DNA from: a virus
DNA: 63,190 nucleotides
Direction: 5' to 3' (one strand)
IMG/VR virus record: IMGVR_UViG_3300042691_045055
Span: 1-63,190 of that record
The translations under genes and the position numbers were made by a program. This document shows positions 43,394 to 60,009 of the stretch, piece after piece. The notes beneath the pieces are model-generated. The model saw only the letters and a list, made by a program, of their open reading frames with translations. It was not told where the DNA came from and did no database searches. The first letter of the stretch is position 1, and every line of letters starts with the position of its first letter.

Positions 43394-44434
43394 ATGAGTA
43401 ACTTTTTGAAAGATATGGTTAAAACCACTGGCAACGAGTTTGCTAGTATCGTCGAAGACGGTATTGACGGTGGTGATGTAACTGGGTTTGTTGACACGGG
43501 TGTATACGCTCTTAACGCTCTTCTTAGCGGCTCGCTTTACGGCGGCATGCCAGCCAACAAGATCATGGCTCTTGCGGGCGAGAGTGCAACTGGTAAAACT
43601 TTCTTTGCTCTTAGTATCGTCAAAACTTTCTTGGAAGCAAATCCAGATGGTGTTTGTATGTATTTTGACAGCGAAGCCGCCGTTACTAGCGATATGTTCC
43701 GCACACGAGGTATCGACACGCGTCGAGTTGCTGTGATCGGTGTGGCAACAGTCGAGGAATTCCGTAATCAAGCTGTCAAGGTAGTAGACAACTATCTCAA
43801 GATGCCTGTGGGCGAACGCAAGCCGATGATCATGATTCTCGACAGCCTCGGAATGTTAAGCAGCACCAAAGAAATGAACGACACTGCCGAAGGCAAAGAC
43901 ACACGCGACATGACTCGTGCGCAGGTCACCAAGGCTACGTTCCGTGTGCTTACGCTCAAGCTTGGCAAGGCTGGTATTCCGCTGATTATGACCAACCATA
44001 CATACGAGACTATGAGCATGTTCCCGCAAAAGGTAATGGGTGGCGGTACAGGTCTTCGATACGCAGCTTCAACCGTTCTGTTCCTCAGCAAGCGCAAAGA
44101 AAAGATCGACAACGAAGTGGTTGGTAATGTGATTCACTGCAAGCTTGATAAGGGTCGATTCACCAAAGAAAATACAATGGTGGATGTGCTGCTTCGTTAC
44201 GATACGGGTCTCAATAAGTACTACGGATTGCTTCCGATCGCTGAAAAGTATGGTATTTTCAAGAAGGTTAGTACACGTTACGAAATGCCTGATGGTACAA
44301 AAGCATTCGAAAAGAATATCAACGAAAATCCCGAGAAGTACTATACCGATGATGTTATGAAGCAACTTGAAACGGCAGTTGCTCAAGAATTTAAATATGG
44401 TAATGAAATAACGGAATCAAAAGATGCTGATTGA
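43394..44434 (+). CDS. uvsX: RecA-like recombinase UvsX
   Basis: A 346-residue recombinase (T4 UvsX is 391). Walker A GESATGKT is at residues 62-69. MIMILDSLGML is the Walker B region and PLIMTNHTYET the region near DNA-binding loop 2. It forms filaments on single-stranded DNA for strand exchange, with UvsY as mediator. Its codons are relatively rich in C/G endings compared with the cassette that follows. The last 11 bases overlap the first glycosyltransferase of that cassette. Confidence 0.95.
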   Translation: MSNFLKDMVKTTGNEFASIVEDGIDGGDVTGFVDTGVYALNALLSGSLYGGMPANKIMALAGESATGKTFFALSIVKTFLEANPDGVCMYFDSEAAVTSDMFRTRGIDTRRVAVIGVATVEEFRNQAVKVVDNYLKMPVGERKPMIMILDSLGMLSSTKEMNDTAEGKDTRDMTRAQVTKATFRVLTLKLGKAGIPLIMTNHTYETMSMFPQKVMGGGTGLRYAASTVLFLSKRKEKIDNEVVGNVIHCKLDKGRFTKENTMVDVLLRYDTGLNKYYGLLPIAEKYGIFKKVSTRYEMPDGTKAFEKNINENPEKYYTDDVMKQLETAVAQEFKYGNEITESKDAD

Positions 44435-45065
44435 TTTACGAATAGTTCCAGTGCTATGGATAAATTTGGAAGAGCACAAAGAAAACGCAAACAATATAAC
44501 TGCAATGTTAAATGGATATGGCTTTGAAAACCATCGTCGAACTCCTGGCATAAGAGTCAATGGATTCGACGGAGTTTCGTACCATCAAAAAATAGATCAT
44601 TATATGGGAGTAGGTCTTGCTCAATTGAATGGCATGCGCCAAATCAAGTCGAGTTTACCAGCTCTCGTATTGGAAGATGATGTGGCTATATCATCAAATT
44701 TCAATCCAGTTTTGGAAGTGCCTGATGATACAGATGCAGTTTATCTTGGTGTTTCTCGAGCTGGTAACGCATTCGGATACAAAATATCCGACAAGTATGC
44801 TAGAATATTTAATGTGTTGTCGGCACACGCTATTCTTTATATTTCTGATAAGTTTATTAACGATGCAATTGAGTCATCCAAAAAATGTTTGATTGATGAT
44901 CAAGCACCTTTTGATTTAGCGATGTCGCAAATGTTGGCTAGACACAATGTTTTGACTCCATTGAATCCTTATTTTTATCAGTCGAACCAAAGACAAAGTG
45001 AAAACAAATGGGAACATTTAACAAATTGTCCCATAAAAATATATGAGAAAACTACAAGCGTTTAA
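44424..45065 (+). CDS. GT25-like glycosyltransferase
   Basis: A 213-residue protein. IVPVLWINLEEHKENANNIT at the start and LVLEDDVAIS at about residues 82-91 match the LPS-type glycosyltransferase family 25 pattern (I-N-L-x-x-x-x-x-R, then E-D-D). It is the first gene of the glycan cassette and overlaps uvsX by 11 bases. A second GT25-like gene lies at 51297. The donor sugar is unknown. Confidence 0.7.
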   Translation: MLIDLRIVPVLWINLEEHKENANNITAMLNGYGFENHRRTPGIRVNGFDGVSYHQKIDHYMGVGLAQLNGMRQIKSSLPALVLEDDVAISSNFNPVLEVPDDTDAVYLGVSRAGNAFGYKISDKYARIFNVLSAHAILYISDKFINDAIESSKKCLIDDQAPFDLAMSQMLARHNVLTPLNPYFYQSNQRQSENKWEHLTNCPIKIYEKTTSV

Positions 45066-45870
45066 TCCTCAATTTCAAATTCAATACAGTAGTTGTTCGA
45101 CATTAGCACCTTCAAATTTCAATTGGTGTCACGAACCGTCTGAACTTGGAGCTGTTTTTTTGGATGCTTCTATACCAGAAGGTTTGAAATTGAATATGTC
45201 CACAAAAAAGTACGCTTGGTTGGTTGAATCTCCCGAACTGTTGGGTGAATTGATAAATTATATAAAAGTTAACAGAAAATTAGTGTCTTATAGTTACAAA
45301 GCTTTGTTTACTTGTGTTGAATCGTTGGTGGGATTGGAACACAATTTTTATTACTGTCCTTCTGGTTCAAATTTACCATGGATAAAAGATAAAAAAATAT
45401 ATAATAAAACTAAATTATGCTCGATGTTTGCTTCGCGCAAAAGATACACTAGCGGTCACATAAAACGCGAAGACGTAGCCAAAAAATATCAACACAAGAT
45501 TGATTTGTTTGGAGGAACACTCAACAGTGCTCGTTTGGGTGATGGAATACATCCCGACAAATCTGAAGGTGTTTGTCCGTACATGTTTTCAATTGTGATT
45601 GAGAACTGCAAACACGACAAGTATTATACCGAGAAGATAACCGATTGCTTTGCAACTGGCACAATTCCAATATATTGGGGAACCGATAAAATTGTTGAAG
45701 ATTTCAACAGCGATGGTATAATAAAGCTGACCGATGATTTTGATATAAACACACTGTCAATAGAATTATACAACAGCAAAAAACACGCAATAGAAGACAA
45801 TTTTAAACGTGTTTGCGATATGAAAATGGCAGACGACTATCTGTTCGAAAAGATAATAGAAATACAATAA
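45043..45870 (+). CDS. GT10-like (fucosyltransferase-type) glycosyltransferase
   Basis: A 275-residue protein. The conserved GT10 C-terminal motif appears at about residues 182-205: MFSIVIENCKHDKYYTEKI and then F-A-T-G-T-I-P-I-Y-W-G. The basic segment FASRKRYTSGH fits the nucleotide-sugar binding lobe. GT10 members usually transfer fucose from GDP-fucose, but no GDP-fucose synthesis genes are visible here, so donor identity is open. It overlaps the previous gene. Confidence 0.75.
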   Translation: MRKLQAFNPQFQIQYSSCSTLAPSNFNWCHEPSELGAVFLDASIPEGLKLNMSTKKYAWLVESPELLGELINYIKVNRKLVSYSYKALFTCVESLVGLEHNFYYCPSGSNLPWIKDKKIYNKTKLCSMFASRKRYTSGHIKREDVAKKYQHKIDLFGGTLNSARLGDGIHPDKSEGVCPYMFSIVIENCKHDKYYTEKITDCFATGTIPIYWGTDKIVEDFNSDGIIKLTDDFDINTLSIELYNSKKHAIEDNFKRVCDMKMADDYLFEKIIEIQ

Positions 45871-45887
45871 TACTTGAAAGGATAATT

Positions 45888-46433
45888 ATGCAAACGATAA
45901 CTCTCAACGAATGGGAGCCATGGGAGCACATGAAGTTTGATGGTAGTGGAACTCATTCGGACTATGACGCTATCGAAATAGGTGCATTGGACGGAGAAAC
46001 TACTAAAGTTTTAGCTAGAAATTTCAAGAGAGTTTTTGTAATTGACCCTTGGGACGGAAGACAACAAGGTGTAGTTCAAAAATATGACATATGGAAAAAT
46101 AATACTAAAGAATTTAAAAACGTATTTCATGTTAGAACGGGTTCAGAAACTCAAGAAGCTAGAAACTTTTTAGCTAGTATAAAAGATTGGAATTTAGGAT
46201 TTGTTTACGTTGATGGTTTACATACAGCAGAGGCTGTAGTTAATGATATTAATCTTGTTTTTCCTTATTCAAACAACAAAACAAAAATCATGGTTGATGA
46301 TGTAGAATATCCTCCTGTTCAAATAGGCTGCAATCAAGCATTCATTCAATTAGCCCCAAAAATATTATTTGAAAAAATTATAAAATCTTCTTTGCACCCT
46401 AGGATAAAATGGATTTATGGAGTAAACAATTAA
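45888..46433 (+). CDS. class I SAM-dependent methyltransferase (Methyltransf_24-like)
   Basis: A 181-residue protein. YDAIEIGALDGETTKVLARN gives the Rossmann glycine motif, VFVIDPWDG the acidic end of strand 2, and FVYVDGLHTAEAVVNDINLV and KIMVDDVEYPPVQIG the late motifs typical of small-molecule or sugar methyltransferases. I start at the ATG at 45888 with an SD (AAAGGA), not at the earlier in-frame codon at 45813 inside the GT10 gene. It is one of four methyltransferases in the cassette; probable glycan O-methylation. Confidence 0.75.
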   Translation: MQTITLNEWEPWEHMKFDGSGTHSDYDAIEIGALDGETTKVLARNFKRVFVIDPWDGRQQGVVQKYDIWKNNTKEFKNVFHVRTGSETQEARNFLASIKDWNLGFVYVDGLHTAEAVVNDINLVFPYSNNKTKIMVDDVEYPPVQIGCNQAFIQLAPKILFEKIIKSSLHPRIKWIYGVNN

Positions 46434-46438
46434 AAATT

Positions 46439-47119
46439 ATGAAATATCTTACTTATACTAATAGTGGATGTATAGATTTGTGCAGAAATATGGTAACTTC
46501 TCTTAAACAAGTAGGAGTAGATGCAAAAAATATTTCAATACATTGCTTTGATAAAATTAGTATGAAGTCTTTAGCAGATCTTGATTGTCAGCTTTATACA
46601 TGGAAAGAATTGTCGGATGATTTAACAGATTACCAAGAATGGTCTTTTGATCCATCGTCAAGTTTTTCTAAAATTGTAAGTTGGAAATGGAAAATAATTA
46701 AAAATTTTTATAACAATAATAAGGAATTCATTTTCACAGACACCGATATTGTATACAAAAAGAATGTTGAAAATGATTTAAAAAGTTACGGTAAAAACAT
46801 ATGCATTCAATGCGATACACCTGGTTCTCTTTACTGTACAGGATTTATGTATTTTAAAGAATCACCTGAGGCTACAACCATAATAAATTCATGTGCTAAT
46901 AACCATATGGATGATCAAATAATATTTAACAGAAATGTAAATGAATTAGGTTTGCGTGATAAAATATGTTTATTACCTCAGGACAAATATCCGAATGGAC
47001 ATGTATTCTATAAAACAGAAATCGATAAATCAAACATAGCGATCATACACAACAATCATATGCTCGGTAAAGAAAATAAAATTAATATGTTTAAAAAATA
47101 TGGAAATTGGTTTGTATGA
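46439..47119 (+). CDS. putative GT-A glycosyltransferase
   Basis: A 226-residue protein. FIFTDTDIVYKKN at about residues 98-110 is a D-x-D metal-binding motif in a hydrophobic strand context. SLYCTGFMYFKES and HMDDQIIFNRN resemble the acceptor side of nucleotide-diphospho-sugar transferases. The ATG at 46439 is preferred over the upstream in-frame start at 46409. Family not assigned with confidence. Confidence 0.6.
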   Translation: MKYLTYTNSGCIDLCRNMVTSLKQVGVDAKNISIHCFDKISMKSLADLDCQLYTWKELSDDLTDYQEWSFDPSSSFSKIVSWKWKIIKNFYNNNKEFIFTDTDIVYKKNVENDLKSYGKNICIQCDTPGSLYCTGFMYFKESPEATTIINSCANNHMDDQIIFNRNVNELGLRDKICLLPQDKYPNGHVFYKTEIDKSNIAIIHNNHMLGKENKINMFKKYGNWFV

Positions 47120-47946
47120 TACCAGATGTTTATCGCCCCTGTCCAAAATATCCAACATATCCTCCATATCATGAGGGTCTGTATTTAGAAGATTATTTCT
47201 ACGAATGGTCTAAAAATAAATCTTTTAATAGAATTTACATTCCTATTTTTTGGACCACCTTGTATTGCGATAACCATCCAATCAATATTCAACATGTTCT
47301 TAATAGATTAGATCCAAATAAAAAGTATTTTACAGTTTGTCAGCACGATGATGCTCCTCGCGAGCGTTTGCCAAAAGATACTTTGGTATTTTCTGCGGGT
47401 GGAAACGTCATAAATGAACAAACAGTAGCGATACCTTTAATCTGCTCCGAGATTAAAAATCCCAATCCCGCACAACAAAAACAGTTTTTTTGTTCTTTTA
47501 TAGGATCCGTAACACATCCAATCAGGGAAAAAATGATATCATGTTTGAAAGGTAAAAACGATTATGTTTTGTCGTATCAAAACTGGACTCCATCGGTTCA
47601 GTCTAAACAATTCGAGCATTTTAAAACTGTAACCGAGAATAGTGTGTTTTGCTTGTGTCCTAGAGGATACGGAAAGAGTAGTTTTAGGTTATACGAAGCA
47701 ATGCAACTAGGTGCGATACCAGTTTACATTAGCAATCATCATTATCTTCCATGGACCGATGAATTGGATTGGAACAGCTTTTCGGTGCTTGTAAAGGAAA
47801 ATGAAATACAAAATATAGATCAAATATTGAAAAGCATTTCACAACAAGAAATAATTAGCAAGCAAAACAAGATAAATGAATTGTATAAAAAGTATTTTAA
47901 TCTAAACGGTATCTGTAATCAAATAATGAAAAGGGTGAATGAATGA
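47116..47946 (+). CDS. exostosin-like (GT47-type) glycosyltransferase
   Basis: A 276-residue protein. FCSFIGSVTHPIREKMISCL and VFCLCPRGYGKSSFRLYEAM, followed by Q-L-G-A-I-P-V-Y-I, are the hallmark C-terminal motifs of exostosin/GT47 proteins. I start at the ATG at 47116, an ATGA overlap with the previous gene, rather than the TTG at 47107. Confidence 0.72.
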   Translation: MIPDVYRPCPKYPTYPPYHEGLYLEDYFYEWSKNKSFNRIYIPIFWTTLYCDNHPINIQHVLNRLDPNKKYFTVCQHDDAPRERLPKDTLVFSAGGNVINEQTVAIPLICSEIKNPNPAQQKQFFCSFIGSVTHPIREKMISCLKGKNDYVLSYQNWTPSVQSKQFEHFKTVTENSVFCLCPRGYGKSSFRLYEAMQLGAIPVYISNHHYLPWTDELDWNSFSVLVKENEIQNIDQILKSISQQEIISKQNKINELYKKYFNLNGICNQIMKRVNE

Positions 47947-48683
47947 AAAAATTTTTATTGGTTGTGGCAAATTATAAAGATCAACGCCAAGAAATATTTG
48001 AAAAATACTATTCTCCTAGAAACAAGGAATTTTGCCAAAAACATGGTTATGAATATATTGTATCTAAAGGAATTGAAATATTTCGTTCAAATCCAACATG
48101 GTGGAAGTTTACTGTTCCTTTAGATTTAATAGATAGAGGTATAGTCAATCAAGGTGACGTAATACTTCATCTTGATGCAGATATGATTATAAAAAATACT
48201 GATTTAGAATATCCTCATCAAAAGAATTTTACTTATTGTATTGACAATGGAAATTCACATTGCATGGGAAATTATTCTATTCGTGTAACAGAGTGGACAA
48301 GAAATATGTTTAAAAATATCTTGGACGAAAAACTTTGGAATGACTGTAAAGACACGGAATTATGGCAACTGTGGCGTGAACAAGCAGCTTGGTACACGTT
48401 AGCTGGAGTTCCTAGACACAGTTGGATTGATTATAGAATTATGCCACACAAAGGTTGGCATCAAACTCAGGATGAATTTTTTAAAAATAAAGTAAAATAT
48501 TCTTTACATGAACTGTATAATAATGTAGAAGTTCTCGGTCCAGAGTGGAACTCTACGATACTATCAGAAGATAAAGATACTATTCCAGATGGAATTTTTC
48601 AATACAATATAGCAAGAAGTAAAAGAGATAACTGCATTATAAGACATTTTGCTGCTGGTCAAGCATGGAGATTGGATTATTGA
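47943..48683 (+). CDS. GT34-like glycosyltransferase
   Basis: A 246-residue protein. The start KFLLVVANYKDQRQE, the segment FCQKHGYEYIVSKG and VILHLDADMIIKN (D-x-D near residues 76-80) fit galactosyltransferase GMA12/MNN10-type (GT34-like) proteins. WREQAAWYTLAGVP and a late R-H-F-A-A-G-Q-A-W agree with that fold. It overlaps both neighbours. Confidence 0.65.
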   Translation: MKKFLLVVANYKDQRQEIFEKYYSPRNKEFCQKHGYEYIVSKGIEIFRSNPTWWKFTVPLDLIDRGIVNQGDVILHLDADMIIKNTDLEYPHQKNFTYCIDNGNSHCMGNYSIRVTEWTRNMFKNILDEKLWNDCKDTELWQLWREQAAWYTLAGVPRHSWIDYRIMPHKGWHQTQDEFFKNKVKYSLHELYNNVEVLGPEWNSTILSEDKDTIPDGIFQYNIARSKRDNCIIRHFAAGQAWRLDY

Positions 48684-49378
48684 TGATACATTATATTATA
48701 TTATCTTGTAAAAAATTAGAGCATTTTAGAAAAATTCAAAAAATAACATGGCTTAAATATATTAACAAAGACGATACCTTTTGTTTTTTATCAGGCAAAG
48801 AACATAAAACAGAAGAAGAGAACGTTTATTGGACAGATACTACAGATGATTACCTTTCTTGTCCTAATAAATATATCGACTATATTAGAAACGGATTGAA
48901 TCAACTCGATAAAAAATGGTATTTTTTTTGTGACGATGATAGTTTTGTTTTTCCAAATAGGTTAAATGAATTACTAAAAAAATATGATTTTAACAAATCA
49001 CATATAGTAATGAATCCTAATCCATATGAAAAACCAGACGATCCTAAAAATACAAGATATTCTAATTTTGTAGAAACTGGTGAAACTTTTTATCCAAATA
49101 TATCTCCTTTAGGTGGAGGAGGTTTTGCTATAAGCAGATTCGCTATGATTAATATGATTAATTATCTAAAAAATACTATCAATCCAGCTATTTGTGTAAA
49201 TAGTGACAGAGCTATTGCTCACTGGTTATCTGCTTCAGGTTTAAAGCAAAATGATATGATATTTAACTATTTTTTATACAATGATGCACCAAATGACTTA
49301 CAAATAAAAGATTCAAGGTTTATTAGCTTTCATCGTGTTTCTTTAGATAAAATGGTTTCTTATTGCAATTTAATATAA
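48683..49378 (+). CDS. GT31/Fringe-like glycosyltransferase
   Basis: A 231-residue protein. ITWLKYINKDDTFCFLSG, then WYFFCDDDSFVFPNRLNELL (D-D-D near residues 80-84) and PLGGGGFAISRFAMINMI, form the order seen in Fringe/galactosyltransferase-like enzymes: D-D-D for metal, then G-G-A-G-type segment. The ATG at 48683 overlaps the previous stop (TGATG). Confidence 0.65.
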   Translation: MIHYIILSCKKLEHFRKIQKITWLKYINKDDTFCFLSGKEHKTEEENVYWTDTTDDYLSCPNKYIDYIRNGLNQLDKKWYFFCDDDSFVFPNRLNELLKKYDFNKSHIVMNPNPYEKPDDPKNTRYSNFVETGETFYPNISPLGGGGFAISRFAMINMINYLKNTINPAICVNSDRAIAHWLSASGLKQNDMIFNYFLYNDAPNDLQIKDSRFISFHRVSLDKMVSYCNLI

Positions 49379-49391
49379 AATTGAGAATAAA

Positions 49392-50264
49392 ATGAAAAAA
49401 ATAAAAATAGCATACTCTGATTTTTGGTACCCATTCGATCCTAAAAATACATTTTATAATGAATTGTTAAAATTTTTAGGTTATGAAGTGGAAATTGTGG
49501 ACTTAAAACAATCTCCTAATATTTTATTTTATTCTTGCTATACACATGACCATAGAATGGTAGACAGAAGCAGAACCAAAAAAATATTTGTTACTGGAGA
49601 AAATGTTCGTCCAAATTTTAATGAATGTGATTATTCTATTTCTTTCGACTTTCCCGATTATGGTGGTAAAAATATCCGTTTACCTCTATGGCTATTTCAA
49701 ATTGATTGGTTTAATAAAGAAAATTATACCAATCCAGAATATGTTATCCCACAAGACAAATTGTATGAAAACGATTGGATGAAAAAACAAAAAACAAAGT
49801 TTTGTTGTATAGTTTTTAATACATATTCTCATTATCGAGCAGAGATGATTGAAAAATTAAGTAGATACAAAAAGGTTGATTGTTATGGTAAACCTTTTGG
49901 TAACTGGTTTTATGGAGAAAAAAATAAAATAAACGTTCTTTCAGATTATAAATTTAATATTTGTTTTGAAAATAGTTTGTATCCAGGTTATTACACAGAA
50001 AAACCCATACACTCAAAAACAGCAGGATGTATTCCGATTTATTGGGCAGATAAATATTGTTACAACGATTTCAATCAAGGATCTTTTTTGAATTTAAATG
50101 ATTGTAATAATAGTGTAGATTTATTGATACAGAAAATCATAGAAATGGATAGCAATCAAACTCGGTATGAAAATATGAAAAATACAAGTTTGTATAAAAA
50201 CAAGCCATCTATAGACTATGTTATTAACAGGATGAAACAAATATTATGCGAAATGCAATTGTAA
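49392..50264 (+). CDS. GT10-like glycosyltransferase, second copy
   Basis: A 290-residue protein. The C-terminal block at about residues 187-215 ([20 protein letters not shown], then [10 protein letters not shown]) is the same GT10 signature as in the gene at 45043, and the two share the order of flanking motifs. They are diverged paralogues or separately acquired. The donor is probably a GDP- or related sugar, unproven. Confidence 0.75.
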
Positions 50265-51304
50265 CTGGATCAGCTGGTTTAGTTGGAAGCCAAGCAGTAA
50301 AATTTTTATCCGAAAAAGGATTTAAAGTTATTGGTATTGATAATGGAATGCGCAAATATTTTTTTGGTGAAAATGCTTCCACAGACAATACTAAAAAATA
50401 TTTAATTTCAAATATTGAAAACTACGTTCATCATAGCGTGGATATTAGAGATGCCGCTGAAATCGATAAGATATTCGAAACCCATGCGTCAGAGTGTGAT
50501 ATAATTGTACATACAGCGGCGCAACCATCTCATGATTGGGCAGCAAGAGAGCCATTTACAGACTTTTCTGTGAATGCCATAGGCACCTTAAATTTATTAG
50601 AATCTACTAGAAAGTATTGTCCTAGTGCTACTTTTATTTTTACATCAACCAATAAGGTGTATGGAGATCGTCCTAATTTTTTGCCAATTGTTGAAATGAA
50701 AACTCGATACGAGTGTTTAGTAGATAATAATCCTTATTCTATTGATGAAAATTTTTCAATAGATCAAAGCAAGCATTCGCTTTTTGGAGCTTCTAAAGTA
50801 GCGGCTGATATTTTATGTCAAGAATATGGTAGATATTTTGGATTGAAAACTGGAATATTTCGTGGCGGTTGTTTAACTGGACCAGACCATGCTGGAGCTG
50901 AATTGCATGGTTTTTTATCTTATTTGGTAAAATGTGTGGTTCATGATAAACCTTACACAATATTTGGATATAAAGGTAAACAAGTTCGTGACAATATTCA
51001 TAGTCAAGATATTTTAAATATGTTCTGGGAATTTCATCTTAATCCTAAATGTGGAGAAGTTTATAATATTGGTGGTGGTCGTGACAATTCATGTTCAATA
51101 TTGGAGGCAATAGATAAGATTAACATTTATGCAAATAAAAAATGGAATTTATATTCAATAAACGAACAAAACAGAATAGGCGATCACATTTGGTATATTA
51201 CAGATTTAACAAAATTTAAAAAACACTATCCAAATTGGAATATTAATATCTCTTTAGATAACATAATACAAGAGATGGTTAATAAGGAGTTGAAAGTTGG
51301 TTGA
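50246..51304 (+). CDS. NAD-dependent sugar epimerase, CDP-paratose 2-epimerase-like
   Basis: A 352-residue extended [19 protein letters not shown] has the G-x-x-G-x-x-G dinucleotide site; [16 protein letters not shown] and [20 protein letters not shown] are typical of the CDP-paratose 2-epimerase (tyvelose-type) group. The catalytic Y-x-x-x-K position reads F180-G-A-S-K184, that is, Phe instead of Tyr; this may be a trait of the subfamily. It overlaps the preceding GT10 gene by 19 bases. Exact substrate unknown. Confidence 0.75.
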
Positions 51305-51968
51305 AACTAAAACATATATTATTCACTGTAAAAAACTTATTGATCGTAAAAAACATATGTTAGAACAGATGCTTTCAAATGAATTTACAAACTATGAATT
51401 TTATGAAGAGTACGATGCAGATGAATTGAATGAAAATTTTATAAAAGATATTTACAATACAGACGTAAATATGCAAAAATATAAAATGAAGCTATGGTCT
51501 TCTGGTGGAACTGCTAGAATTCTTAGAAGAGAAGAAGTTTCATTGACTTATAAATTTTATAAAGTTTTTGAAAAGATTGCATTTGGACAAGACGAATCTG
51601 CTATCATTTTTGAGGATGATGTGATTTTATCTTCTGATTTTGAGTCTTCTTTCAAGATGTATTGCACGGAACTTCCAAGCGATTATGATGCTGTATTTTT
51701 TGGTAGTGGTGCTAATTTACACATACAAACTGAAGATCAAAAACATTGTTACAAGAAAAGTCACCCGGCTACTAGATGTGCTGATTCTTTTATGATAACA
51801 AAAAAAGCGTGTCAGCAATTGGTAAAAACTTATTTACCTTTTTCTTTGTGTTCCGACTGGGAAATAGCTTGGCAAATGGCGAGACACAATCAAAATATAT
51901 ATTGGTTTGAACCATCTCTAGTTAAACAAGGATCTGAAACAGGTCTTTTTCAATCAACACTTAGATAA
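51297..51968 (+). CDS. GT25-like glycosyltransferase, second copy
   Basis: A 223-residue protein. [20 protein letters not shown] at the start and [13 protein letters not shown] at about residues 103-115 follow the GT25 pattern also seen at 44424. [20 protein letters not shown] near the C-terminus also fits. It starts with TTG at 51297, supported by AAGGAG seven bases upstream within the previous gene. Confidence 0.7.
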
Positions 51969-51976
51969 AATATATT

Positions 51977-53065
51977 ATGAAAAAGAAAATAGCTTTTTTG
52001 AAATTTGCTGGTCTAGCTTCAGGTGGAATTGAAAAATATCTTCAAACTATGGCTGTAGTTTTGAAGAAAAATGGACATGATGTTGATTATTATTATACAA
52101 ACGCCGCACCGTTCATAAACAGCGATTTCGTTCATCCGCCAAACGACGAGAATCGTCGTCAATATCTTTTAAACAATAACATATCGACTTACGAAATTAA
52201 GGTTGGTTATAAAAACGGTGGAACAATTCCGTATACATGGCACGATACGAATATATGGGATGTATTTGATCCTTCTAAATATGATTTTATTCAAACTGGT
52301 CGAGCAGGATATCCTGAATATCCGTTTACTGAAATAAAAAACACAAAAATCGTAGATAGTATCCATGGACCTTGGGTACACAAACAAGAAAATATAGTTC
52401 ATTCTATATTGTTGTGTAAATGGCAACTAGATCAATGGGTATCGAATGGAGGAGATGTTTCAAAAACAACTATCATACCATCTTTAGTTTATGTTCCACC
52501 AATAAAATCAAGTAATTTGAGACAAAAATACAATCTGAAAGATAAATTTATTTACGGAATACATCAAAGAAACGATCCTGGTATTTTTTCACCTGCTAAT
52601 TTACAGGCTTATAAAAATATTTCTAATGACAATAATTGTTTTGTAATACTAGGAGGTTCTAACAAACATAGAGAATATGTAGCTGCTAATAAAATTCCAA
52701 ATGTTTATTTTGAAGATTTTAGTTCAGATGTTAATCAGATACATGATTTTTTAGAAGGTATAGATGTTTATGCTCACGCTCGTAATGGTGGTGAAGTGTG
52801 CTCTGCCTCAATAGTAGAAGCTATGTATCATGGAAAACCAGTTATAAGCATACCTGGAAAGGATATGGGACATTTAGAACAAATTGACGGTTGTGGAAAA
52901 ATGTGTTACAATTTACAAGAATATATGTCTGAAATGGTTATATTGGAAAAAAGCAGACAGTATTACGTTTTAAAATCGTCACAAACAAAACAAAAATACA
53001 AAGAAAAGTATGATTTTAATAAGATAGAAAAAGATATAGTTGATTTATATGAAACTTTAACATAA
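51977..53065 (+). CDS. GT4-family (GT-B) glycosyltransferase
   Basis: A 362-residue protein. AFLKFAGLASGGIEKYLQTM is the Gly-rich N-terminal loop of GT4 enzymes. The C-terminal domain contains DVYAHARNGGEVCSASIVEA, then MYHGKPVISIPG, at about residues 259-295, with the E-x7-E catalytic motif (E-V-C-S-A-S-I-V-E). Retaining transferase, donor not predicted. Confidence 0.82.
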   Translation: MKKKIAFLKFAGLASGGIEKYLQTMAVVLKKNGHDVDYYYTNAAPFINSDFVHPPNDENRRQYLLNNNISTYEIKVGYKNGGTIPYTWHDTNIWDVFDPSKYDFIQTGRAGYPEYPFTEIKNTKIVDSIHGPWVHKQENIVHSILLCKWQLDQWVSNGGDVSKTTIIPSLVYVPPIKSSNLRQKYNLKDKFIYGIHQRNDPGIFSPANLQAYKNISNDNNCFVILGGSNKHREYVAANKIPNVYFEDFSSDVNQIHDFLEGIDVYAHARNGGEVCSASIVEAMYHGKPVISIPGKDMGHLEQIDGCGKMCYNLQEYMSEMVILEKSRQYYVLKSSQTKQKYKEKYDFNKIEKDIVDLYETLT

Positions 53066-53074
53066 AGGATTTTT

Positions 53075-53614
53075 ATGCCAGTAGACAATGATGGTGTTGA
53101 TTTTAAAAAATGGAAACAAAATTGCACAGTACTTATTGAAACAGGCACGGCATTCGGAGATGGTATATCTTCAGCTCTTTGTGCGGGAATTGAAAAGATT
53201 TATTCTATTGAATTACAACCAGATCTTCATCGAAATGCAGTTGATAAATTTAAAGACAACAAAAATGTAGAAATCATTTACGGAAATTCTATGGATGTGC
53301 TTCCGTCTTTGATAGAAAAAACAAAAAATGAATCTGTTTTGTTTTGGTTAGATGCTCATTGGTCAGGAAGCGAGTTTGCTGGTGAGATGATGAATGTTTT
53401 TCTTCCTAAAGAATTGGATTCTATAGAAAAGCATATTTCTGTAAGAAACAACAGAAATATAGTTATTATGATAGATGATATGAATTTTTACGAACACGAC
53501 ACCGCATTCAAAAATACAATTGAAGAAAAACTTAAAAAAATAATTCCAGAATGTAATTTGTCTTACTATAAATCTTCAGGTAATAATCATATTATATTAG
53601 TAGCTTATAAATGA
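53075..53614 (+). CDS. class I methyltransferase-like protein
   Basis: A 179-residue protein. TVLIETGTAFGDGISSALCA, IYSIELQPDLHRNAVDKF and VEIIYGNSMDVLPSLIE make a Rossmann core of SAM-dependent methyltransferases (G-x-G-like loop, acidic end of strand 2, then a G-N-S/D motif). VLFWLDAHWSG and IVIMIDDMNFYE follow the pattern seen in the 45888 gene. SD AAAGGA. The ATGA overlap with the next gene suggests coupling. Confidence 0.7.
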   Translation: MPVDNDGVDFKKWKQNCTVLIETGTAFGDGISSALCAGIEKIYSIELQPDLHRNAVDKFKDNKNVEIIYGNSMDVLPSLIEKTKNESVLFWLDAHWSGSEFAGEMMNVFLPKELDSIEKHISVRNNRNIVIMIDDMNFYEHDTAFKNTIEEKLKKIIPECNLSYYKSSGNNHIILVAYK

Positions 53615-54321
53615 AATACTGTTTTGATTTAGATGAAACCATATGCGCTACTCCAGCTTCTCGTAAATATGCAGAGGCGGTTCCATACATTAAAGTTGTA
53701 TCTGCAATAAATGATTTATATGATCAAGGTAATGAGATAACAATATTCACAGCTCGTGGAGGCAGTTCTGGTATAGATTACACAGAACTGACTCACAATC
53801 AACTGCAATCTTGGGGATTAAAGTATCATAAATTAATACTTAAAAAACCAAGTTACGACTATTTTATAGACGACAAAGCCATAAATAGTGTTGATTGGCG
53901 AAATAAAAACAACATTAAAATAGTGGGTTTTGTTGCTAGTTGTTTTGATTTGTTGCATGCAGGACATTGTTTATATTTGAAAGAAGCAAAATCATATTGT
54001 GATCATCTTGTAGCAGGTCTTCATGTTGATCCTAGCAATGAAAGAGCGAACAAAAATAAACCTATACAAAGTTTGGAAGAAAGAAAAATACAGTTAGAGT
54101 CTACAAAATATGTTGATGAAATTTTGATTTATAATACAGAACAAGAATTGGAAAATTTAATAAAACAAGTAAAACCAGACGTTCGTTTTTTAGGTAGCGA
54201 TTGCCAAGATAAAAAAATTACAGGATATGAGTATTGTAAAAATATAATTTATCACAATAGAGCAAATCATATATGGTCTTCGAGTGAATTAAGAACAAGG
54301 ATAAAAAATGACATTAGATGA
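53611..54321 (+). CDS. fused HAD phosphatase-like and HxGH cytidylyltransferase-like enzyme
   Basis: A 236-residue two-domain protein. Residues 1-100 are HAD-like: D6-x-D8-E-T10, T-A-R-G near 47-50 and a distal FIDDKA near 85-90. Residues about 103-236 are a nucleotidyltransferase: F-V-A-S-C-F-D-L-L-H-A-G-H with the HxGH motif at 116-119, a TKYVDEIL segment, and an ending WSSSELR resembling the I-S-T-T-x-I/R-x motif. The second domain resembles TagD and the HldE C-terminal domain. Beside GmhA-like and HddA-like genes, the fusion could remove the C7 phosphate and then activate heptose-1-phosphate; that pathway role is inferred. Confidence 0.75.
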   Translation: MKYCFDLDETICATPASRKYAEAVPYIKVVSAINDLYDQGNEITIFTARGGSSGIDYTELTHNQLQSWGLKYHKLILKKPSYDYFIDDKAINSVDWRNKNNIKIVGFVASCFDLLHAGHCLYLKEAKSYCDHLVAGLHVDPSNERANKNKPIQSLEERKIQLESTKYVDEILIYNTEQELENLIKQVKPDVRFLGSDCQDKKITGYEYCKNIIYHNRANHIWSSSELRTRIKNDIR

Positions 54322-55000
54322 AAAAATTGATGAAATAATGATGATGGTTGATAACGCTCCAGAAAAAACTTCTGAATACGACTTCCATAGAACTTATTTT
54401 TCAAAAGTATTACCTAAAGTTCAAATAGATGGAATGTGGACGGAATTTGGTGTTTATCGCGGAAGATCTATAAAAACAATATCAACTTACGCTAGTAAAA
54501 AAAATGCAATTGTTTATGGTTTTGATAGCTTTGAAGGGTTACCAGAATTTTGGGACAAGGACAACCCTAAAGGTTGTTATGGATTGGCTGGAAAAATTCC
54601 AGATGGTATTATTGATGATAGATTTCCAGATGCCGATACAGGTATGTTTAATAGTGGACCAACAAGAAGAATGCTTCCGTGGCCAAGCAACGTTAAACTT
54701 GTAAAAGGTTTATTTGAAGATACCTTAGATGGATTTTTAAATGAACATAAAGATACAGTTGCGTATGTTCACATCGATTCTGATATTTATAGTGCCGCAA
54801 AAACAGTATTGACTAAATTGAAAGATAGAATAGTAGTAGGTACAGTATTAGATTTTGATGAAATTTGCGATTATCCTGATTACAGAAATCATGAAATTAA
54901 AGCTTTTGCTGAGTATTTGCTTGACACAAATAGAAAAGTATCACCAATATGCAGTCAGAGGTTGGGTTATAGTCAATGTAGTTTTATTGTAACAGAATAA
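54308..55000 (+). CDS. TylF/MycF-like O-methyltransferase
   Basis: A 230-residue protein. MWTEFGVYRGRSIKTISTYA and VYGFDSFEGLPEFW are the TylF-family start, and VAYVHIDSDIYSAAKTVLTK with a following GTVLDFDEICDYPDYRNHEI holds the metal-binding acidic residues of sugar O-methyltransferases such as MycF. It overlaps the previous gene and precedes the GmhA-like gene. Probable methylation of a sugar hydroxyl. Confidence 0.82.
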   Translation: MTLDEKIDEIMMMVDNAPEKTSEYDFHRTYFSKVLPKVQIDGMWTEFGVYRGRSIKTISTYASKKNAIVYGFDSFEGLPEFWDKDNPKGCYGLAGKIPDGIIDDRFPDADTGMFNSGPTRRMLPWPSNVKLVKGLFEDTLDGFLNEHKDTVAYVHIDSDIYSAAKTVLTKLKDRIVVGTVLDFDEICDYPDYRNHEIKAFAEYLLDTNRKVSPICSQRLGYSQCSFIVTE

Positions 55001-55029
55001 ACAATGAACTATAATGAATTGAGAATTTT

Positions 55030-55602
55030 ATGAAAAAACAATTTGTAATTAATTATTTGAACGAAGTAAAAATGATATGCGATTCTATTTCAATTGAAAA
55101 TATACTTGAATTTTCAATACAAATAGAAAATATTAAAAATAAAAACGGAAGAATATTTTTTCTAGGAGTCGGAGGAAGCGCTGGAAATGCTTCACATGCT
55201 GTAAACGACTTTAGAAAAATATTAGGAATTGAATCTTATGCTGTAACCGATAATGTTTCAGAATTAACAGCTAGAATCAATGATGAAGGTTGGGATGTTT
55301 CTTATGTGAATTTTTTGAAAGCTTCTCGACTTTCAAAAAATGATGCTATTATGATATTTTCTGTAGGTGGTGGTTCTTCAACCACTTCAATTAATTTAGT
55401 GAAGGCTATGGAATATGCCAAAGAAACAGGAACAACTGTTCTATCAATCGTAAGTAGAGATGGTGGAGCAGCTAAGTCTATGTCGGATGTATGCGTGCTC
55501 GTTCCTGTGATAGATCAAAGTAGAATAACTCCACACGCCGAAGAATGGCAAGCAATATTGTGGCACCTTTTGGTTTCAATGATAAAGGAATCTAAATCAT
55601 GA
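55030..55602 (+). CDS. gmhA: SIS-domain phosphoheptose isomerase (GmhA-like)
   Basis: A 190-residue protein (E. coli GmhA is 192). FLGVGGSAGNASHAVNDF at about residues 45-61 and IFSVGGGSSTTSINLVKAME are the two SIS phosphate-binding loops, and RITPHAEEWQAILWHLLVSM is the C-terminal active-site helix seen in GmhA-type isomerases (Glu/His pair). GmhA turns sedoheptulose-7-phosphate into glycero-manno-heptose-7-phosphate, the first committed step of heptose synthesis. The nearby transaldolase, which can form sedoheptulose-7-phosphate, and an HddA-like kinase support this role. Confidence 0.82.
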   Translation: MKKQFVINYLNEVKMICDSISIENILEFSIQIENIKNKNGRIFFLGVGGSAGNASHAVNDFRKILGIESYAVTDNVSELTARINDEGWDVSYVNFLKASRLSKNDAIMIFSVGGGSSTTSINLVKAMEYAKETGTTVLSIVSRDGGAAKSMSDVCVLVPVIDQSRITPHAEEWQAILWHLLVSMIKESKS

Positions 55603-56336
55603 TTAAAAATTTAAAAGTTGGCACGATGCGAGATTCATTAGCCCAAAGAGACAATGAAATATACGATTATTTAAAACAATTAGAATCTAAAAAGGGCAGA
55701 AAATTGTCAATATTGGATGTTGGTGGTGGTTGTAGCATTAGACTTCCAAACACCACCCACGTTTTAGATTTTTTACCTCTTAGAGACGCAGCAAAAGATC
55801 AGAATGTTTCTTTGTTTTTAGGAAACATAGATTTGACTGACGGTTGGACAGAAGTTTTTGAGTATGTTAAACAAAATGGAAAATTCGATTTTGTTGTTTG
55901 TAGCCACACACTTGAAGACATAAATTCATCCGAACAAGTTATATTAAATCTGTTCAAAGTTGCCGATGCAGGCATGATTGCTCTTCCCACCAAATACATT
56001 GAAACCATACACTGGGAGACTTATTATCTTCAACAGCCATATATGGGATACGGACATCATAAATGGATTTATACCGTAAAAAACAATACTCTTTACGCAT
56101 ATCCTAAAATGGGACACATGGAGTATGTAAAATTTAATTTTTCAGGTTTACAAGAATATTTAAAAAGATATTCTAATCAGCAGACTGAAATGACCTTTTT
56201 GTGGGAAAACGATTTTTCATTTAAATTTGTACAACCATTTCAATATTTGAATCATTTTGAGCTGACAGAAACAAAACAGTCTGCGTACTTAGATTTGATG
56301 GAAAAGGATGATGTTTGTAAACTTTTTGTGGGGTAA
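55599..56336 (+). CDS. SAM-dependent methyltransferase-like protein
   Basis: A 245-residue protein. KLSILDVGGGCSIRLPNTTH, then VLDFLPLRDA, gives the Rossmann glycine loop and the strand-2 acidic residue; FDFVVCSHTLEDINSSEQVI is the motif before strand 5 typical of methyltransferase fold proteins. The C-terminal half is family-specific. It overlaps the GmhA-like gene by ATGA. Substrate unknown; a sugar intermediate of the cassette is likely. Confidence 0.65.
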   Translation: MIKNLKVGTMRDSLAQRDNEIYDYLKQLESKKGRKLSILDVGGGCSIRLPNTTHVLDFLPLRDAAKDQNVSLFLGNIDLTDGWTEVFEYVKQNGKFDFVVCSHTLEDINSSEQVILNLFKVADAGMIALPTKYIETIHWETYYLQQPYMGYGHHKWIYTVKNNTLYAYPKMGHMEYVKFNFSGLQEYLKRYSNQQTEMTFLWENDFSFKFVQPFQYLNHFELTETKQSAYLDLMEKDDVCKLFVG

Positions 56337-56341
56337 TAAAT

Positions 56342-57049
56342 ATGAAAATTAAAATTTATGCTGATGGATCTGATTACGATCAGATTGTAAATATTTACAA
56401 CAACAGATTCACAAACAACATACATGGCTTTACAACGAATCCAACCTTGATGTGTAAAGCCGGAGTTTCCGACTACTTGGAATTCGCTAAAAAAGTTTTA
56501 ATGGTAGTAAAAGAATCTCCAATATCTTTTGAAGTTTTTGCCGATGATTTTAATGAAATGCATAGACAGGCACTTATACTTTCAAAATTGGCGCCAAACG
56601 TATATGTAAAGATACCAGTAATGAACACTCAAAAACAGACATCTTATAATATTATACGAGAATTGTCTGATTTGGGAGTCAAGTTGAACGTTACAGCAGT
56701 ATTTACAATAGATCAAATTAATGAAATATATAAGTGCTTAAATCCAAAAATAAATTCTATTGTTTCAATTTTCGGAGGAAGAATTGCAGATACTGGTGTA
56801 AATCCAGAAATTAGTATTATTCATGCCGTAAAAAATAGACCTTCTTCTAATATTGAAGTTTTATGGGCATCACCAAGAGAAGTTTACAATATATATCAAG
56901 CCGACTCTATAAACTGTGATATAATTACAGTCACGCCAGATCTTATCAAGAAGTTTATTGAGCTTCAAGGTAAAGATCTAGAGGAATACTCTCTAGAAAC
57001 AGTAAAAATGTTTTACAATGATGCCTGCAGAGCTGGATTTAAATTATGA
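56342..57049 (+). CDS. transaldolase (short TalC/FSA-like)
   Basis: A 235-residue TIM-barrel aldolase. KIYADGSDYDQI, then IHGFTTNPTLMCKAG, is the N-terminal transaldolase signature (F-T-T-N-P-T). The Schiff-base lysine is Lys90 in VYVKIPVMN, and KLNVTAVFTIDQI follows. Short transaldolases are known cyanophage auxiliary metabolic genes; here the position between gmhA-like and hddA-like genes suggests supply of sedoheptulose-7-phosphate to heptose synthesis. The stop overlaps the kinase start. Confidence 0.88.
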   Translation: MKIKIYADGSDYDQIVNIYNNRFTNNIHGFTTNPTLMCKAGVSDYLEFAKKVLMVVKESPISFEVFADDFNEMHRQALILSKLAPNVYVKIPVMNTQKQTSYNIIRELSDLGVKLNVTAVFTIDQINEIYKCLNPKINSIVSIFGGRIADTGVNPEISIIHAVKNRPSSNIEVLWASPREVYNIYQADSINCDIITVTPDLIKKFIELQGKDLEEYSLETVKMFYNDACRAGFKL

Positions 57050-58023
57050 TAATTTCTAGAACTCCTTTTCGAATGACTCTTGGTGGAGGAGGTACAGATT
57101 TACCTTCTTTTTATAAAAAACATGGTGGGTTTGTTGTATCAATGGCCATCGACAAGCACTGTTACATAACCTTCAAACCAAATGTATTTGATAGTTCTTT
57201 GATACTCAGATACTCTGAAAATGAAAAAGTAAAAAATATTTCAGAATTAAAAAATACACGAGCGCGAGAAGTGCTTCTTCGTCATGGAATAACCTCTGCA
57301 GAAATTTGTAGTATTGCAGATTTACCAACAAATACTGGACTAGGTTCATCTGGTAGTTTTTTGGTTGGAATGATAAACACTTTAAGAGAATACAAACGAA
57401 TCAGTCAGCATCCAACCGAAATAGCTGAAGAAGCTTGTGATATTGAAATTAACAAGTTGAACGAACCAGTTGGCAAACAAGATCAATATATTGCCTCTTA
57501 TGGTGGACTAAAAACATTAACTATTGATACATATGGAAATGTTAATGTCAAAAACGTAAATGTTTCTCACACAAACTTCAGTTTGTTTTTATCAAATATT
57601 CAAGTTTATTATTTGAATGTACAGAGAAACGCTTCGGATGTATTAAAAGAACAATCAAAAATGAAATCTAGCACCGAAGATTTACTGCTTAAAATAAAAG
57701 ATTATGGATATCAAACACTTGACATAATTGAAAATCAAAATTTTGATCAATATGGATTATTGATGCATGATTATTGGGAATTAAAGAAAAAATTATCTTC
57801 TAACATCTCAATAAACACAGTGGACATTCTTTACGAAGAACTTCGTAAAAACTATAACGTTCTTGGTGGTAAAATAATCGGAGCTGGCGGTGGTGGATTT
57901 TTTATGGTTTATGTATACAAGAATCATAAAAAATTAGAAGAATACATGAATAGTATTGGATATTCTAAACTTGAATTTTCTGTAGATTATAATGGATCCA
58001 AAATATTGGGAAATTATATATGA
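57046..58023 (+). CDS. hddA: GHMP-family heptose-7-phosphate kinase (HddA-like)
   Basis: A 325-residue protein. ISRTPFRMTLGGGGTDLPSF is the signature N-terminus of HddA-type sugar kinases, LPTNTGLGSSGSFLVG the GHMP ATP loop (P-x-x-x-G-L-G-S-S), and VLGGKIIGAGGGGFFMVY the C-terminal GHMP motif. HddA phosphorylates C1 of D-glycero-alpha-D-manno-heptose-7-phosphate. A related fucose/other sugar kinase is a less likely alternative. It overlaps both the transaldolase and the epimerase by ATGA. Confidence 0.85.
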   Translation: MIISRTPFRMTLGGGGTDLPSFYKKHGGFVVSMAIDKHCYITFKPNVFDSSLILRYSENEKVKNISELKNTRAREVLLRHGITSAEICSIADLPTNTGLGSSGSFLVGMINTLREYKRISQHPTEIAEEACDIEINKLNEPVGKQDQYIASYGGLKTLTIDTYGNVNVKNVNVSHTNFSLFLSNIQVYYLNVQRNASDVLKEQSKMKSSTEDLLLKIKDYGYQTLDIIENQNFDQYGLLMHDYWELKKKLSSNISINTVDILYEELRKNYNVLGGKIIGAGGGGFFMVYVYKNHKKLEEYMNSIGYSKLEFSVDYNGSKILGNYI

Positions 58024-58913
58024 AATGTTTGGTTACTGGTGGTAATGGTTTTATTGGATCGCACGTCGTTGATCGATTGATTAACAACGGTCACGAAGTA
58101 ATTGTTATTGATGATTTATCAGGATTAAACGATAAATTTTATTACAATCAAAAAGCTTTGTATTACAGTGAAAACATATGCAATTACGATTTTCTTCTCA
58201 AAGCATGTAAAAATATAGACTTAATTTTTCACCTAGCAGCCGAATCTAGAATTCAACCAGCAATCGAAAATCCTTTGTTGGCTGTACAAACCAATATGGT
58301 TGGAACTGCTAATGTTCTTCAGGCAGCTAGATTAAATGGAGTTAAGCGAGTTGTATATTCTTCAACATCTTCAGTTTATGGTTTGAATGAAAATTTACCA
58401 ACAGACGAAACTACACCTGTTGATTGTTTGAATCCATATTCTACCACAAAATATGGAGGAGAAGAATTGTGTCGAATGTACAGCAAACTTTACAATTTAG
58501 ATACATGTATTTTTAGATATTTTAATGTTTACGGTGAAAGATCTCCCACAAAAGGACTTTACAGTCCTGTTATTGGTTTGTTTATAAAACAAAATAAAGA
58601 AGAAAATAAATTACACATTATGGGTAATGGGTTGCAAAGACGTGATTTTATACATGTTGCTGATGTGGCTGATATCAATATTAAAGCAGCTTTCCATGAA
58701 TCTAATGTGAACGGAGAAACATTCAATATTGGGTTTGGAGAAAATCATTCGATTCAAGAGATAGCAAAAAACATAAATTCAAACATCGAGTATCATCCAC
58801 CTAGAGTAGGTGAAGCTAAAAATACTTTGGCTGACATTACCAAAGTTAAGAAATTTTTTGATTGGAAACCACAAATTAATTTGTGGACTTGGTTATCGAA
58901 TCAATTAAAATAA
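58020..58913 (+). CDS. NAD-dependent UDP-sugar 4-epimerase-like (GalE-type SDR)
   Basis: A 297-residue extended SDR. KCLVTGGNGFIGSHVVDRLI holds the G-x-x-G-x-x-G site and VIVIDDLSG the NAD-selective acidic residue. The catalytic set is intact: SSTSSVYG and Y140-x-x-x-K144 in NPYSTTKYGGEEL. RYFNVYGERSP and RRDFIHVADVADINIKAA are typical for UDP-glucose/GlcNAc 4-epimerases. It could make UDP-galactose for the mutase gene that follows. Confidence 0.85.
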   Translation: MKCLVTGGNGFIGSHVVDRLINNGHEVIVIDDLSGLNDKFYYNQKALYYSENICNYDFLLKACKNIDLIFHLAAESRIQPAIENPLLAVQTNMVGTANVLQAARLNGVKRVVYSSTSSVYGLNENLPTDETTPVDCLNPYSTTKYGGEELCRMYSKLYNLDTCIFRYFNVYGERSPTKGLYSPVIGLFIKQNKEENKLHIMGNGLQRRDFIHVADVADINIKAAFHESNVNGETFNIGFGENHSIQEIAKNINSNIEYHPPRVGEAKNTLADITKVKKFFDWKPQINLWTWLSNQLK

Positions 58914-58916
58914 TTT

Positions 58917-60008
58917 ATGAATTATGATTATTTAATAGTGGGATCTGGATTGTTCGGATCTGTTTTTGCTCGCGAAATGACAGACAAAGGAGCAAAATGT
59001 TTAGTTATAGACAAAAGAAATTTTGTCGGAGGCAACTGTAGAACAACCGATGTAAATGGAATTCATGTTCACGAATATGGACCTCACATATTTCACACTA
59101 GCAGCAAAAGAATATGGGATTACGTGAATAAGTATGCTAATTTCAATAGATTTGTTTATAGACCAAAGGTTATATACAAAAATAAATTATATTCTTTTCC
59201 CATAAATCTGATGACTCTTTATCAAATTTGGGATGTAAAAACTCCAGAGGAGGCTCAGAAAAAAATAAATTCTGTTAAAAAGAATATAGAAAATCCAAAG
59301 AATTTAGAAGAATGGATTGTTTCTCAAGTTGGAGAGGAATTATATCATATTTTTGTGTATGGTTACACTAAAAAACAATGGAACTGCCATCCAAATCAAT
59401 TGCCAGTTTCAATTATAAAGAGGCTACCAATACGTTTAAACTACGATGACAATTACTTTGAAGATAATTATCAAGGAATACCCGAAGAAGGTTATTCTAA
59501 AATATTTGAAAATTTATTAAAAAATGTAACGGTTTTGACAAACGTAGACTATTTTCAAGATAAAGATTATTGGAATAAAAAAGCTAAAAAAGTAGTGTAT
59601 ACCGGAGCAATAGATGAATTTTTTGATTATGAGTATGGTAATTTAAAGTGGAGAAGTTTGAAATTTGAACACGAACATTTAAATATTTCAGATTATCAAG
59701 GAAATGCTGTAATTAATTACACTGAAGAAAGTGTACCTTATACTCGAATAACCGAACACAAACATTTCACATTTGGCAGACAAAACAACACGGTAATAAC
59801 AAAAGAATATCCACAAGAATGGGATAAAAGCAAAGAAAAATTTTATCCATTGAATGACGAAATAAACAACGAATTATATAAAAAATATAAACAAAAAATA
59901 AATAATGAAAAATTTATTTTTGGTGGAAGATTGGCGGATTACAAATATTATGACATGCATCAAGTCATAGGATCTGCTATAGCGGCTAGTGAAAAGGAAA
60001 GCTTGTAG
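58917..60008 (+). CDS. glf: UDP-galactopyranose mutase
   Basis: A 363-residue flavoenzyme (bacterial UGM about 367-390). YLIVGSGLFGSVFAREMTDK is the FAD-binding G-x-G-x-x-G, FVGGNCRTTDVNGIHVHEYG the conserved substrate-site start, and PHIFHTSSKRIWDYVNKYAN and YGYTKKQWNCHPNQLP are UGM signatures. ITEHKHFTFGRQNNTVITKE near the C-terminus also fits. It converts UDP-Galp to UDP-Galf, a sugar absent from most virion glycans described so far. Confidence 0.93.
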   Translation: MNYDYLIVGSGLFGSVFAREMTDKGAKCLVIDKRNFVGGNCRTTDVNGIHVHEYGPHIFHTSSKRIWDYVNKYANFNRFVYRPKVIYKNKLYSFPINLMTLYQIWDVKTPEEAQKKINSVKKNIENPKNLEEWIVSQVGEELYHIFVYGYTKKQWNCHPNQLPVSIIKRLPIRLNYDDNYFEDNYQGIPEEGYSKIFENLLKNVTVLTNVDYFQDKDYWNKKAKKVVYTGAIDEFFDYEYGNLKWRSLKFEHEHLNISDYQGNAVINYTEESVPYTRITEHKHFTFGRQNNTVITKEYPQEWDKSKEKFYPLNDEINNELYKKYKQKINNEKFIFGGRLADYKYYDMHQVIGSAIAASEKESL

Positions 60009-60009
60009 T

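Follow-up and report, generated by a model that had tools for sequence, protein, structure and literature searches.

What does a phage make with a transaldolase, a GmhA-like isomerase, an HddA-like GHMP kinase and a fused HAD-HxGH protein that are encoded side by side? These genes are found in a 63,190-base IMG/VR virus record (IMGVR_UViG_3300042691_045055; the window, meaning here this whole stretch of DNA), which by gene content belongs to a T4-like myovirus. An initial annotation had proposed that the four proteins act in sequence to produce a nucleotide-activated heptose. All four are intact open reading frames (ORFs), and profile searches confirmed the families to which it had assigned them. 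Our analysis suggests that the genes probably constitute a hybrid phage route to a nucleoside diphosphate (NDP)-heptose. The module comprises the following genes, given with their best profile matches (E values unless bits are stated):

53611..54321, + strand: HAD-HxGH fusion of 236 amino acids, predicted sugar-1,n-bisphosphate phosphatase and sugar-1-phosphate nucleotidyltransferase (phrog_7878, 9.5e-35; phrog_1238, 5.7e-29)
54308..55000, + strand: TylF/Methyltransf_24-type methyltransferase (PF05711, 4.5e-11)
55030..55602, + strand: GmhA-fold SIS isomerase of 190 amino acids, predicted sedoheptulose-7-phosphate isomerase (SIS_2, 8.9e-8; TIGR00441 gmhA, 4.7e-15)
55599..56336, + strand: class I methyltransferase-like protein (PF13489, 1.7e-4, below cut-off)
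56342..57049, + strand: short transaldolase (Staphylococcus-type) of 235 amino acids, predicted sedoheptulose-7-phosphate source (TAL_FSA, 1.2e-34; TIGR02134, 278.2 bits)
57046..58023, + strand: HddA-like GHMP kinase of 325 amino acids, predicted heptose-7-phosphate 1-kinase (NF049969 HddA, 1.9e-33)
58020..58913, + strand: SDR nucleotide-sugar epimerase/dehydratase, predicted NDP-sugar modifier (Epimerase, 2e-60)

The module genes are co-directional; neighbours overlap by 4-14 bases or are separated by no more than 29, and this tight arrangement makes a single operon plausible. In the proposed pathway, the transaldolase would form sedoheptulose-7-phosphate (S7P) from fructose-6-phosphate and erythrose-4-phosphate, and the GmhA-fold, probably zinc-dependent isomerase is predicted from its fold and residues to convert S7P to an aldoheptose-7-phosphate. 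The HddA-like kinase would phosphorylate C1 to give the 1,7-bisphosphate, the HAD half of the fusion, which is of the AfhF type, would remove the distal phosphate, and the HxGH half may couple the resulting heptose-1-phosphate to a nucleotide, with CTP or ATP likelier as donor than GTP. The adjacent SDR and methyltransferases could then tailor the sugar before glycosyltransferases of the surrounding cassette would transfer it to a target on the host surface, the virion or the DNA. The route appears to join a kinase as in the GDP-alpha-heptose route with a nucleotidyltransferase fold as in the ADP-beta-heptose route and a phosphatase type that also serves the phage arabinose-DNA pathway. We favor a heptose as product because the isomerase is GmhA-like, the transaldolase would make the GmhA substrate, and the cellular counterparts have GmhB/HddC-like partners.

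Does the gene set recur elsewhere? All counts refer to loci retained from pattern-seeded searches with 8-kb flanks; the viral records may be fragments and include near-duplicate contigs, and the cellular loci contain many related Lachnospiraceae and are not independent. Scanning IMG/VR with the single isomerase sequence gave no match, and a search with an isomerase alignment identified 39 relatives in viruses and at least 566 in cells, 80 of the latter being kept. IMG/VR loci seeded with the kinase again contained isomerase, transaldolase, kinase, fusion and SDR, with identities of 44-63%. The gene order varies: in locus L002 the fusion precedes the isomerase, and in L003 and L004 it follows the kinase. 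Of the viral loci with the isomerase, 25 span at least 12 kb; transaldolase and kinase are both present in 23 of these and the fusion in 18. A search seeded with the fusion, in which the isomerase was not used as query, resulted in at least 520 viral matches (80 kept), usually with kinase, isomerase and SDR. Among those kept, 55 loci are 12 kb or longer, and every one of them encodes the kinase; 51 have an isomerase, 53 an SDR homologue with at least 40% identity and only 12 the transaldolase. Hence, the common viral core consists of kinase, isomerase, fusion and SDR, and the window belongs to a transaldolase-bearing sub-variant. As a measure of scale, only 11 of 50,697 phage records matched the kinase and 3 the isomerase.

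Cellular genomes contain a related set. Within the 57 cellular isomerase loci of at least 12 kb, we found a transaldolase in 55, an HddA-like kinase in 51, a GmhB-like HAD in 55 and an HddC-like nucleotidyltransferase in 56, and all five enzymes together in 48. The five-gene set also occurs in Methanoperedens (with the genes consecutive in L087), Melainabacteria, Ignavibacteria, Anaerolineae and others. Another viral lineage, represented by L116, has isomerase, transaldolase and kinase and, as two separate proteins, a GmhB-like HAD and an HxGH enzyme, suggesting that the fusion in the window fills these two steps. As other viruses and cells conserve the set, a chance grouping is excluded; the gene set is a real phage pathway variant and not a one-off. 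The co-occurrence search that the initial annotation had recommended thus showed that the set is conserved, with about 30 IMG/VR loci holding the version with transaldolase and hundreds holding the core. The same counts contradict its view that it is unusual for a single phage operon to hold the full set, as the core is widespread and present even in a sequenced cyanophage. We found no paper describing this phage heptose gene set in the open-access literature.

The frequent occurrence of the core without a transaldolase, and the talC-like transaldolases that many cyanophages encode far from any heptose genes, would fit with decoupled enzymes: the transaldolase could have a general auxiliary role in pentose-phosphate metabolism, as talC does in cyanophages, with the isomerase, the kinase and the fusion working on one or more unrelated sugars. 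We consider this quite improbable, since, although gene order is shuffled, a transaldolase of the TIGR02134 lineage is found next to the isomerase both in two viral lineages and in cells, and isomerase, kinase, fusion and SDR nearly always co-occur.

The isomerase shares 24% identity with E. coli GmhA (BLASTP, E 1e-12). Its AlphaFold model has a predicted local distance difference test (pLDDT) score of 94, and the best 24 fold matches in the Protein Data Bank (PDB) are all GmhA; the alignments for structure prediction were built without rows from phage records. Identity as a KdsD-type arabinose-5-phosphate isomerase was rejected by BLASTP and fold. The zinc-site residues H56, D60, E171 and H179 (H-D-E-H) are invariant in 30 aligned sequences and conserved in the isomerases of cellular operons with GmhB/HddC-like genes. 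We adopted the pairing of E171 with Q172 of E. coli GmhA given by HMMER and BLASTP; a MAFFT alignment that paired Q172 with Q174, placing a gap in the last helix, was not used. The zinc site of Burkholderia pseudomallei GmhA is formed by H64, E68, Q175 and H183, and a crystal structure of its Q175E version contains bound zinc and S7P (PMC5705639). Q175E is counted among the GmhA mutants that affect activity (PMC5705639). Because Q175E has the same Gln-to-Glu change at one position and holds zinc and S7P, metal binding by the window isomerase is plausible, and the enzyme is probably zinc-dependent. In the isomerase tree, the window protein is within an all-viral clade of 20 sequences (support 100/99) nested in the cellular family, and a second, separate viral clade of nine sequences contains the L116 type; some branches are long. 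The subfamily, marked by its H-D-E-H zinc ligands and by an SVGGG loop, is present in many bacteria and some archaea (cellular loci L013-L092), in operons with a Staphylococcus-type transaldolase and GmhB/HddC-like enzymes that are often fused. No assayed member of it was found in the open-access literature.

In the transaldolase, K90 (the Schiff-base lysine) and F144 are present in 97 of 97 sequences. F144 aligns with Tyr131 of fructose-6-phosphate aldolase (FSA), a position at which Phe or Tyr separates transaldolases from fructose-6-phosphate aldolases (F178 in TalB, Y131 in FSA). An identity as fructose-6-phosphate aldolase was rejected on this residue, and the product of 56342..57049 is, as far as this signature tells, a transaldolase. 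The kinase has its best matches to HddA in NCBIfam (NF049969, 1.9e-33) and, in the PDB, to the heptose-7-phosphate kinase 4n3o (6.4e-24).

The fusion consists of a HAD domain (residues 1 to about 100) and an HxGH domain (about 105-231), and its AlphaFold model has a pLDDT of 89. Both halves retain their motifs across 32 aligned sequences: D6, D8, T10, T47, K79, D87 and D88 are invariant and make up the full HAD motif set, and H116, G118, R217, H220 and S223 are invariant in the HxGH half, which has HAGH at 116-119. The HxGH half falls between domain II of HldE, to which it has the higher profile score, and TagD-type cytidylyltransferases, which it matches better in fold. Its best structural matches are the CTP:glycerol-3-phosphate cytidylyltransferases 2b7l and 1coz, and HldC (5xf2) is also among the fold matches. 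These matches, together with a C-terminal R..H..S(T/S) motif that seems closer to TagD than to HldE, would be consistent with an enzyme making CDP-glycerol or another CDP-polyol unconnected to the heptose enzymes. Such a role is very improbable: the RfaE/HldE domain II profile scores 81 bits and the g3p_cytidyltrns (TagD) profile 54 bits (cut-off 165.4), all 55 fusion loci also encode the kinase, and fold similarity does not fix the substrate. Among 92 distinct viral fusions, about 70 have a tyrosine at the second histidine of the motif (HPGY or HFGY; for example L004:8984-9715 and L009:20052-20804), mostly in loci without transaldolase; the window protein retains HAGH. No full-length fusion was detected at E 1e-20 in 598 cellular genomes from two phyla, in which the domains occur separately, and none in the 80 cellular isomerase loci. 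In this limited sample, the fusion looks phage-associated.

The HAD half raises the main alternative to a heptose. A GmhB- or histidinol-phosphatase-type identity was rejected, as this half matches the AfhF/EcbF type; among solved structures it is closest to AfhF, the D-arabinose 1,5-diphosphate phosphatase of phage HY126 (PDB 9iqw, 3.1e-17). It is also 43% identical to RB69p051, the sequence of which matches HY126 AfhF across the aligned stretch. RB69-like phages use an arabinose route for DNA modification, with an isomerase-kinase-nucleotidyltransferase-HAD module near uvsX (PMC6024577), and the cassette in the window is also located beside uvsX. The module could accordingly yield an activated pentose such as the NDP-D-arabinose for arabinosyl-hydroxymethylcytosine in RB69 and HY126, the isomerase acting on ribulose-5-phosphate and the kinase on arabinose-5-phosphate. 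This explanation is unlikely on several grounds. The window isomerase is a GmhA by sequence and fold and has no BLASTP similarity to the KdsD/GutQ-like arabinose-5-phosphate isomerase of RB69, and the RB69 kinase and nucleotidyltransferase match no protein of the window. The module includes a transaldolase, as do 55 of its 57 cellular counterparts, whereas a route from ribulose-5-phosphate needs none. Moreover, AfhF-type HADs in Pseudomonadota (L218, L216) adjoin sialic-acid-synthase-like (NeuB-like) genes, one being fused to an aminotransferase-like domain, suggesting that the family is not pentose-specific. Many phage proteins called 'phosphoheptose isomerase' are in fact AfhF-type HAD phosphatases (phrog_1238), including RB69p051 (L215:3709-4095) and proteins in the P-SSM2, S-CAM3 and Bellamy records (L010, L011, L012). 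The frequency of gmhA among the auxiliary metabolic genes of phages may have been overestimated.

Several observations weigh against an NDP-heptose as the product. Profile scores remain below the equivalog cut-offs for the isomerase (56 bits versus 209.45 for TIGR00441), the kinase (116 versus 600 for HddA) and the HxGH half (81 versus 181.5 for RfaE/HldE domain II), and just below the cut-off for the transaldolase (278.2 versus 282 for TIGR02134). Of the ligands H61, E65, Q172 and H180 in E. coli GmhA, the window isomerase keeps both histidines but has E65 replaced by D60 and Q172 by E171. A pentose bisphosphate is the substrate of the most closely related HAD that has been characterised, and no assayed enzyme of this subfamily set was found in the open-access literature. 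The product of HddA is an alpha-1-phosphate (PMC10680097). The HxGH enzyme HldE, in contrast, uses the beta-1-phosphate, which makes a productive pairing of the two enzyme types putative. The reaction order proposed in the initial annotation is well supported by co-occurrence in cells and viruses, by fold and by active-site residues; the specificity for heptose, nucleotide and anomer is putative. Still, an NDP-heptose is the product that we favor. More tentatively, and with somewhat less than even confidence, we suggest a phage-specific third route in which a GHMP C1-kinase would feed an AfhF-type phosphatase/HxGH nucleotidyltransferase protein, the phage's own transaldolase would supply the C7 precursor and dedicated viral glycosyltransferases would use the product. 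That product could be, for example, a CDP- or ADP-heptose in alpha configuration, unlike both known bacterial activated heptoses.

The module is embedded in a sugar and glycan cassette of 17 co-directional genes (44424-61047, about 16.6 kb), inserted between UvsX and the gp41 helicase, with a GC content of 31% compared with 39% in the structural region. The other features of this part of the window are:

43394-44434: UvsX, bordering the cassette
44424..53614, + strand: upstream part of the cassette, with glycosyltransferases (GT10/FucT-like, GT47 exostosin-like, Fringe-like and group 1), an SDR and a methyltransferase (Pfam)
58917..60008, + strand: UDP-galactopyranose mutase, Glf (TIGR00031, 365.5 bits, above the cut-off of 303.75)
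61105-62529: gp41 helicase, bordering the cassette

Glf is a cassette neighbour outside the heptose module. Two methyltransferases (54308-55000, 55599-56336) are interleaved among the sugar genes, and the SDR (58020-58913) is directly downstream and part of the module in relatives; the initial annotation had named none of these three genes. The first methyltransferase has a homologue with at least 35% identity in 16 of the 25 viral loci of 12 kb or more that carry the isomerase, and presumably tailors the sugar or glycan; the second has a homologue in one relative contig (L110/L004). The window also encodes a terminase, sheath, portal, scaffold, gp23-like capsid protein, UvsW, gp46/47 and a late sigma factor, and the nearest relatives of its capsid protein (about 62%) are phages of Methylophilales and Pelagibacter. 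No late-promoter-like TATAAATA was found on the + strand from 38975 to the window end, promoter scans gave hits at chance level and were not used as evidence, and PADLOC had no defence-system match.

Should the module indeed yield a heptose, it would be common for T4-like phages to have their own complete branch leading out of central carbon metabolism to an unusual activated sugar, assembled by recombination from parts of two bacterial pathways and of a phage DNA-modification pathway. The labels 'heptose' and 'phosphoheptose isomerase', which are widespread on marine viral genes, would then be both explained and corrected. The cellular operons indicate that a GmhA subfamily whose zinc ligands are altered, and which has apparently not been assayed, occurs in many phyla and some archaea.

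How does the module compare with known systems? In the ADP-beta-heptose pathway of Gram-negative lipopolysaccharide (GmhA, HldE, GmhB and HldD), HldE combines a PfkB kinase, which makes the beta anomer, with its own HxGH domain. The HxGH nucleotidyltransferase of the window is distantly like HldE domain II, but the kinase is a GHMP enzyme and not of the PfkB type of HldE domain I, and the SDR was rejected as HldD, its score (124.8 bits) being far below the cut-off of 274.6. The other bacterial route pairs HddA, a GHMP kinase making the alpha-1-phosphate, with HddC (PMC10680097). This GDP-alpha-heptose route shares with the window the GmhA-fold isomerase, the HddA-like kinase and the proposed reaction order. 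The window module differs from it in its H-D-E-H zinc ligands, its clustered transaldolase and the single HAD-HxGH fusion that replaces both the GmhB-type HAD and the HddC-type nucleotidyltransferase; indeed, Pfam and NCBIfam profile searches detected no HddC guanylyltransferase (a GT-A type sugar-1-phosphate nucleotidyltransferase) among the module ORFs. The pairing of a GHMP kinase with an HxGH enzyme occurs in neither known bacterial route. The cellular isomerase-transaldolase-kinase operons of Lachnospiraceae, Methanoperedens, Melainabacteria and others are similar to the window in their isomerase (51-61% identity), transaldolase (about 45-52%) and kinase (about 36-46%), but have a GmhB-like HAD and an HddC-like nucleotidyltransferase, often fused together, and no HAD-HxGH fusion.

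D-arabinose activation in RB69 and HY126 has the same HAD family (about 43%), the same phage-borne isomerase-kinase-phosphatase-nucleotidyltransferase logic and a location near uvsX. It differs in its KdsD/GutQ-like isomerase and in a kinase/nucleotidyltransferase (ORF53_52c) unrelated to those of the window, and there is no transaldolase in the stretch read. Like the window, the Synechococcus phage SynMITS9220M01 has a kinase, isomerase, HAD-HxGH fusion and SDR close together (genes 204-207, adjacent to one another; MT408532, PMC7378029), and in this phage they are mostly labelled as heptose genes. Its isomerase is only distantly similar, the second histidine of its HxGH motif is a tyrosine (HPGY) and its transaldolase is about 20 kb away. 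This phage also encodes a second HddA-like kinase beside an HddC-like nucleotidyltransferase (L009:11992-13995), so that one phage may hold two sugar-activation routes. Overall, the phage gene set of the window is probably a variant of known heptose-activation routes, with a core already present in cyanophage SynMITS9220M01.

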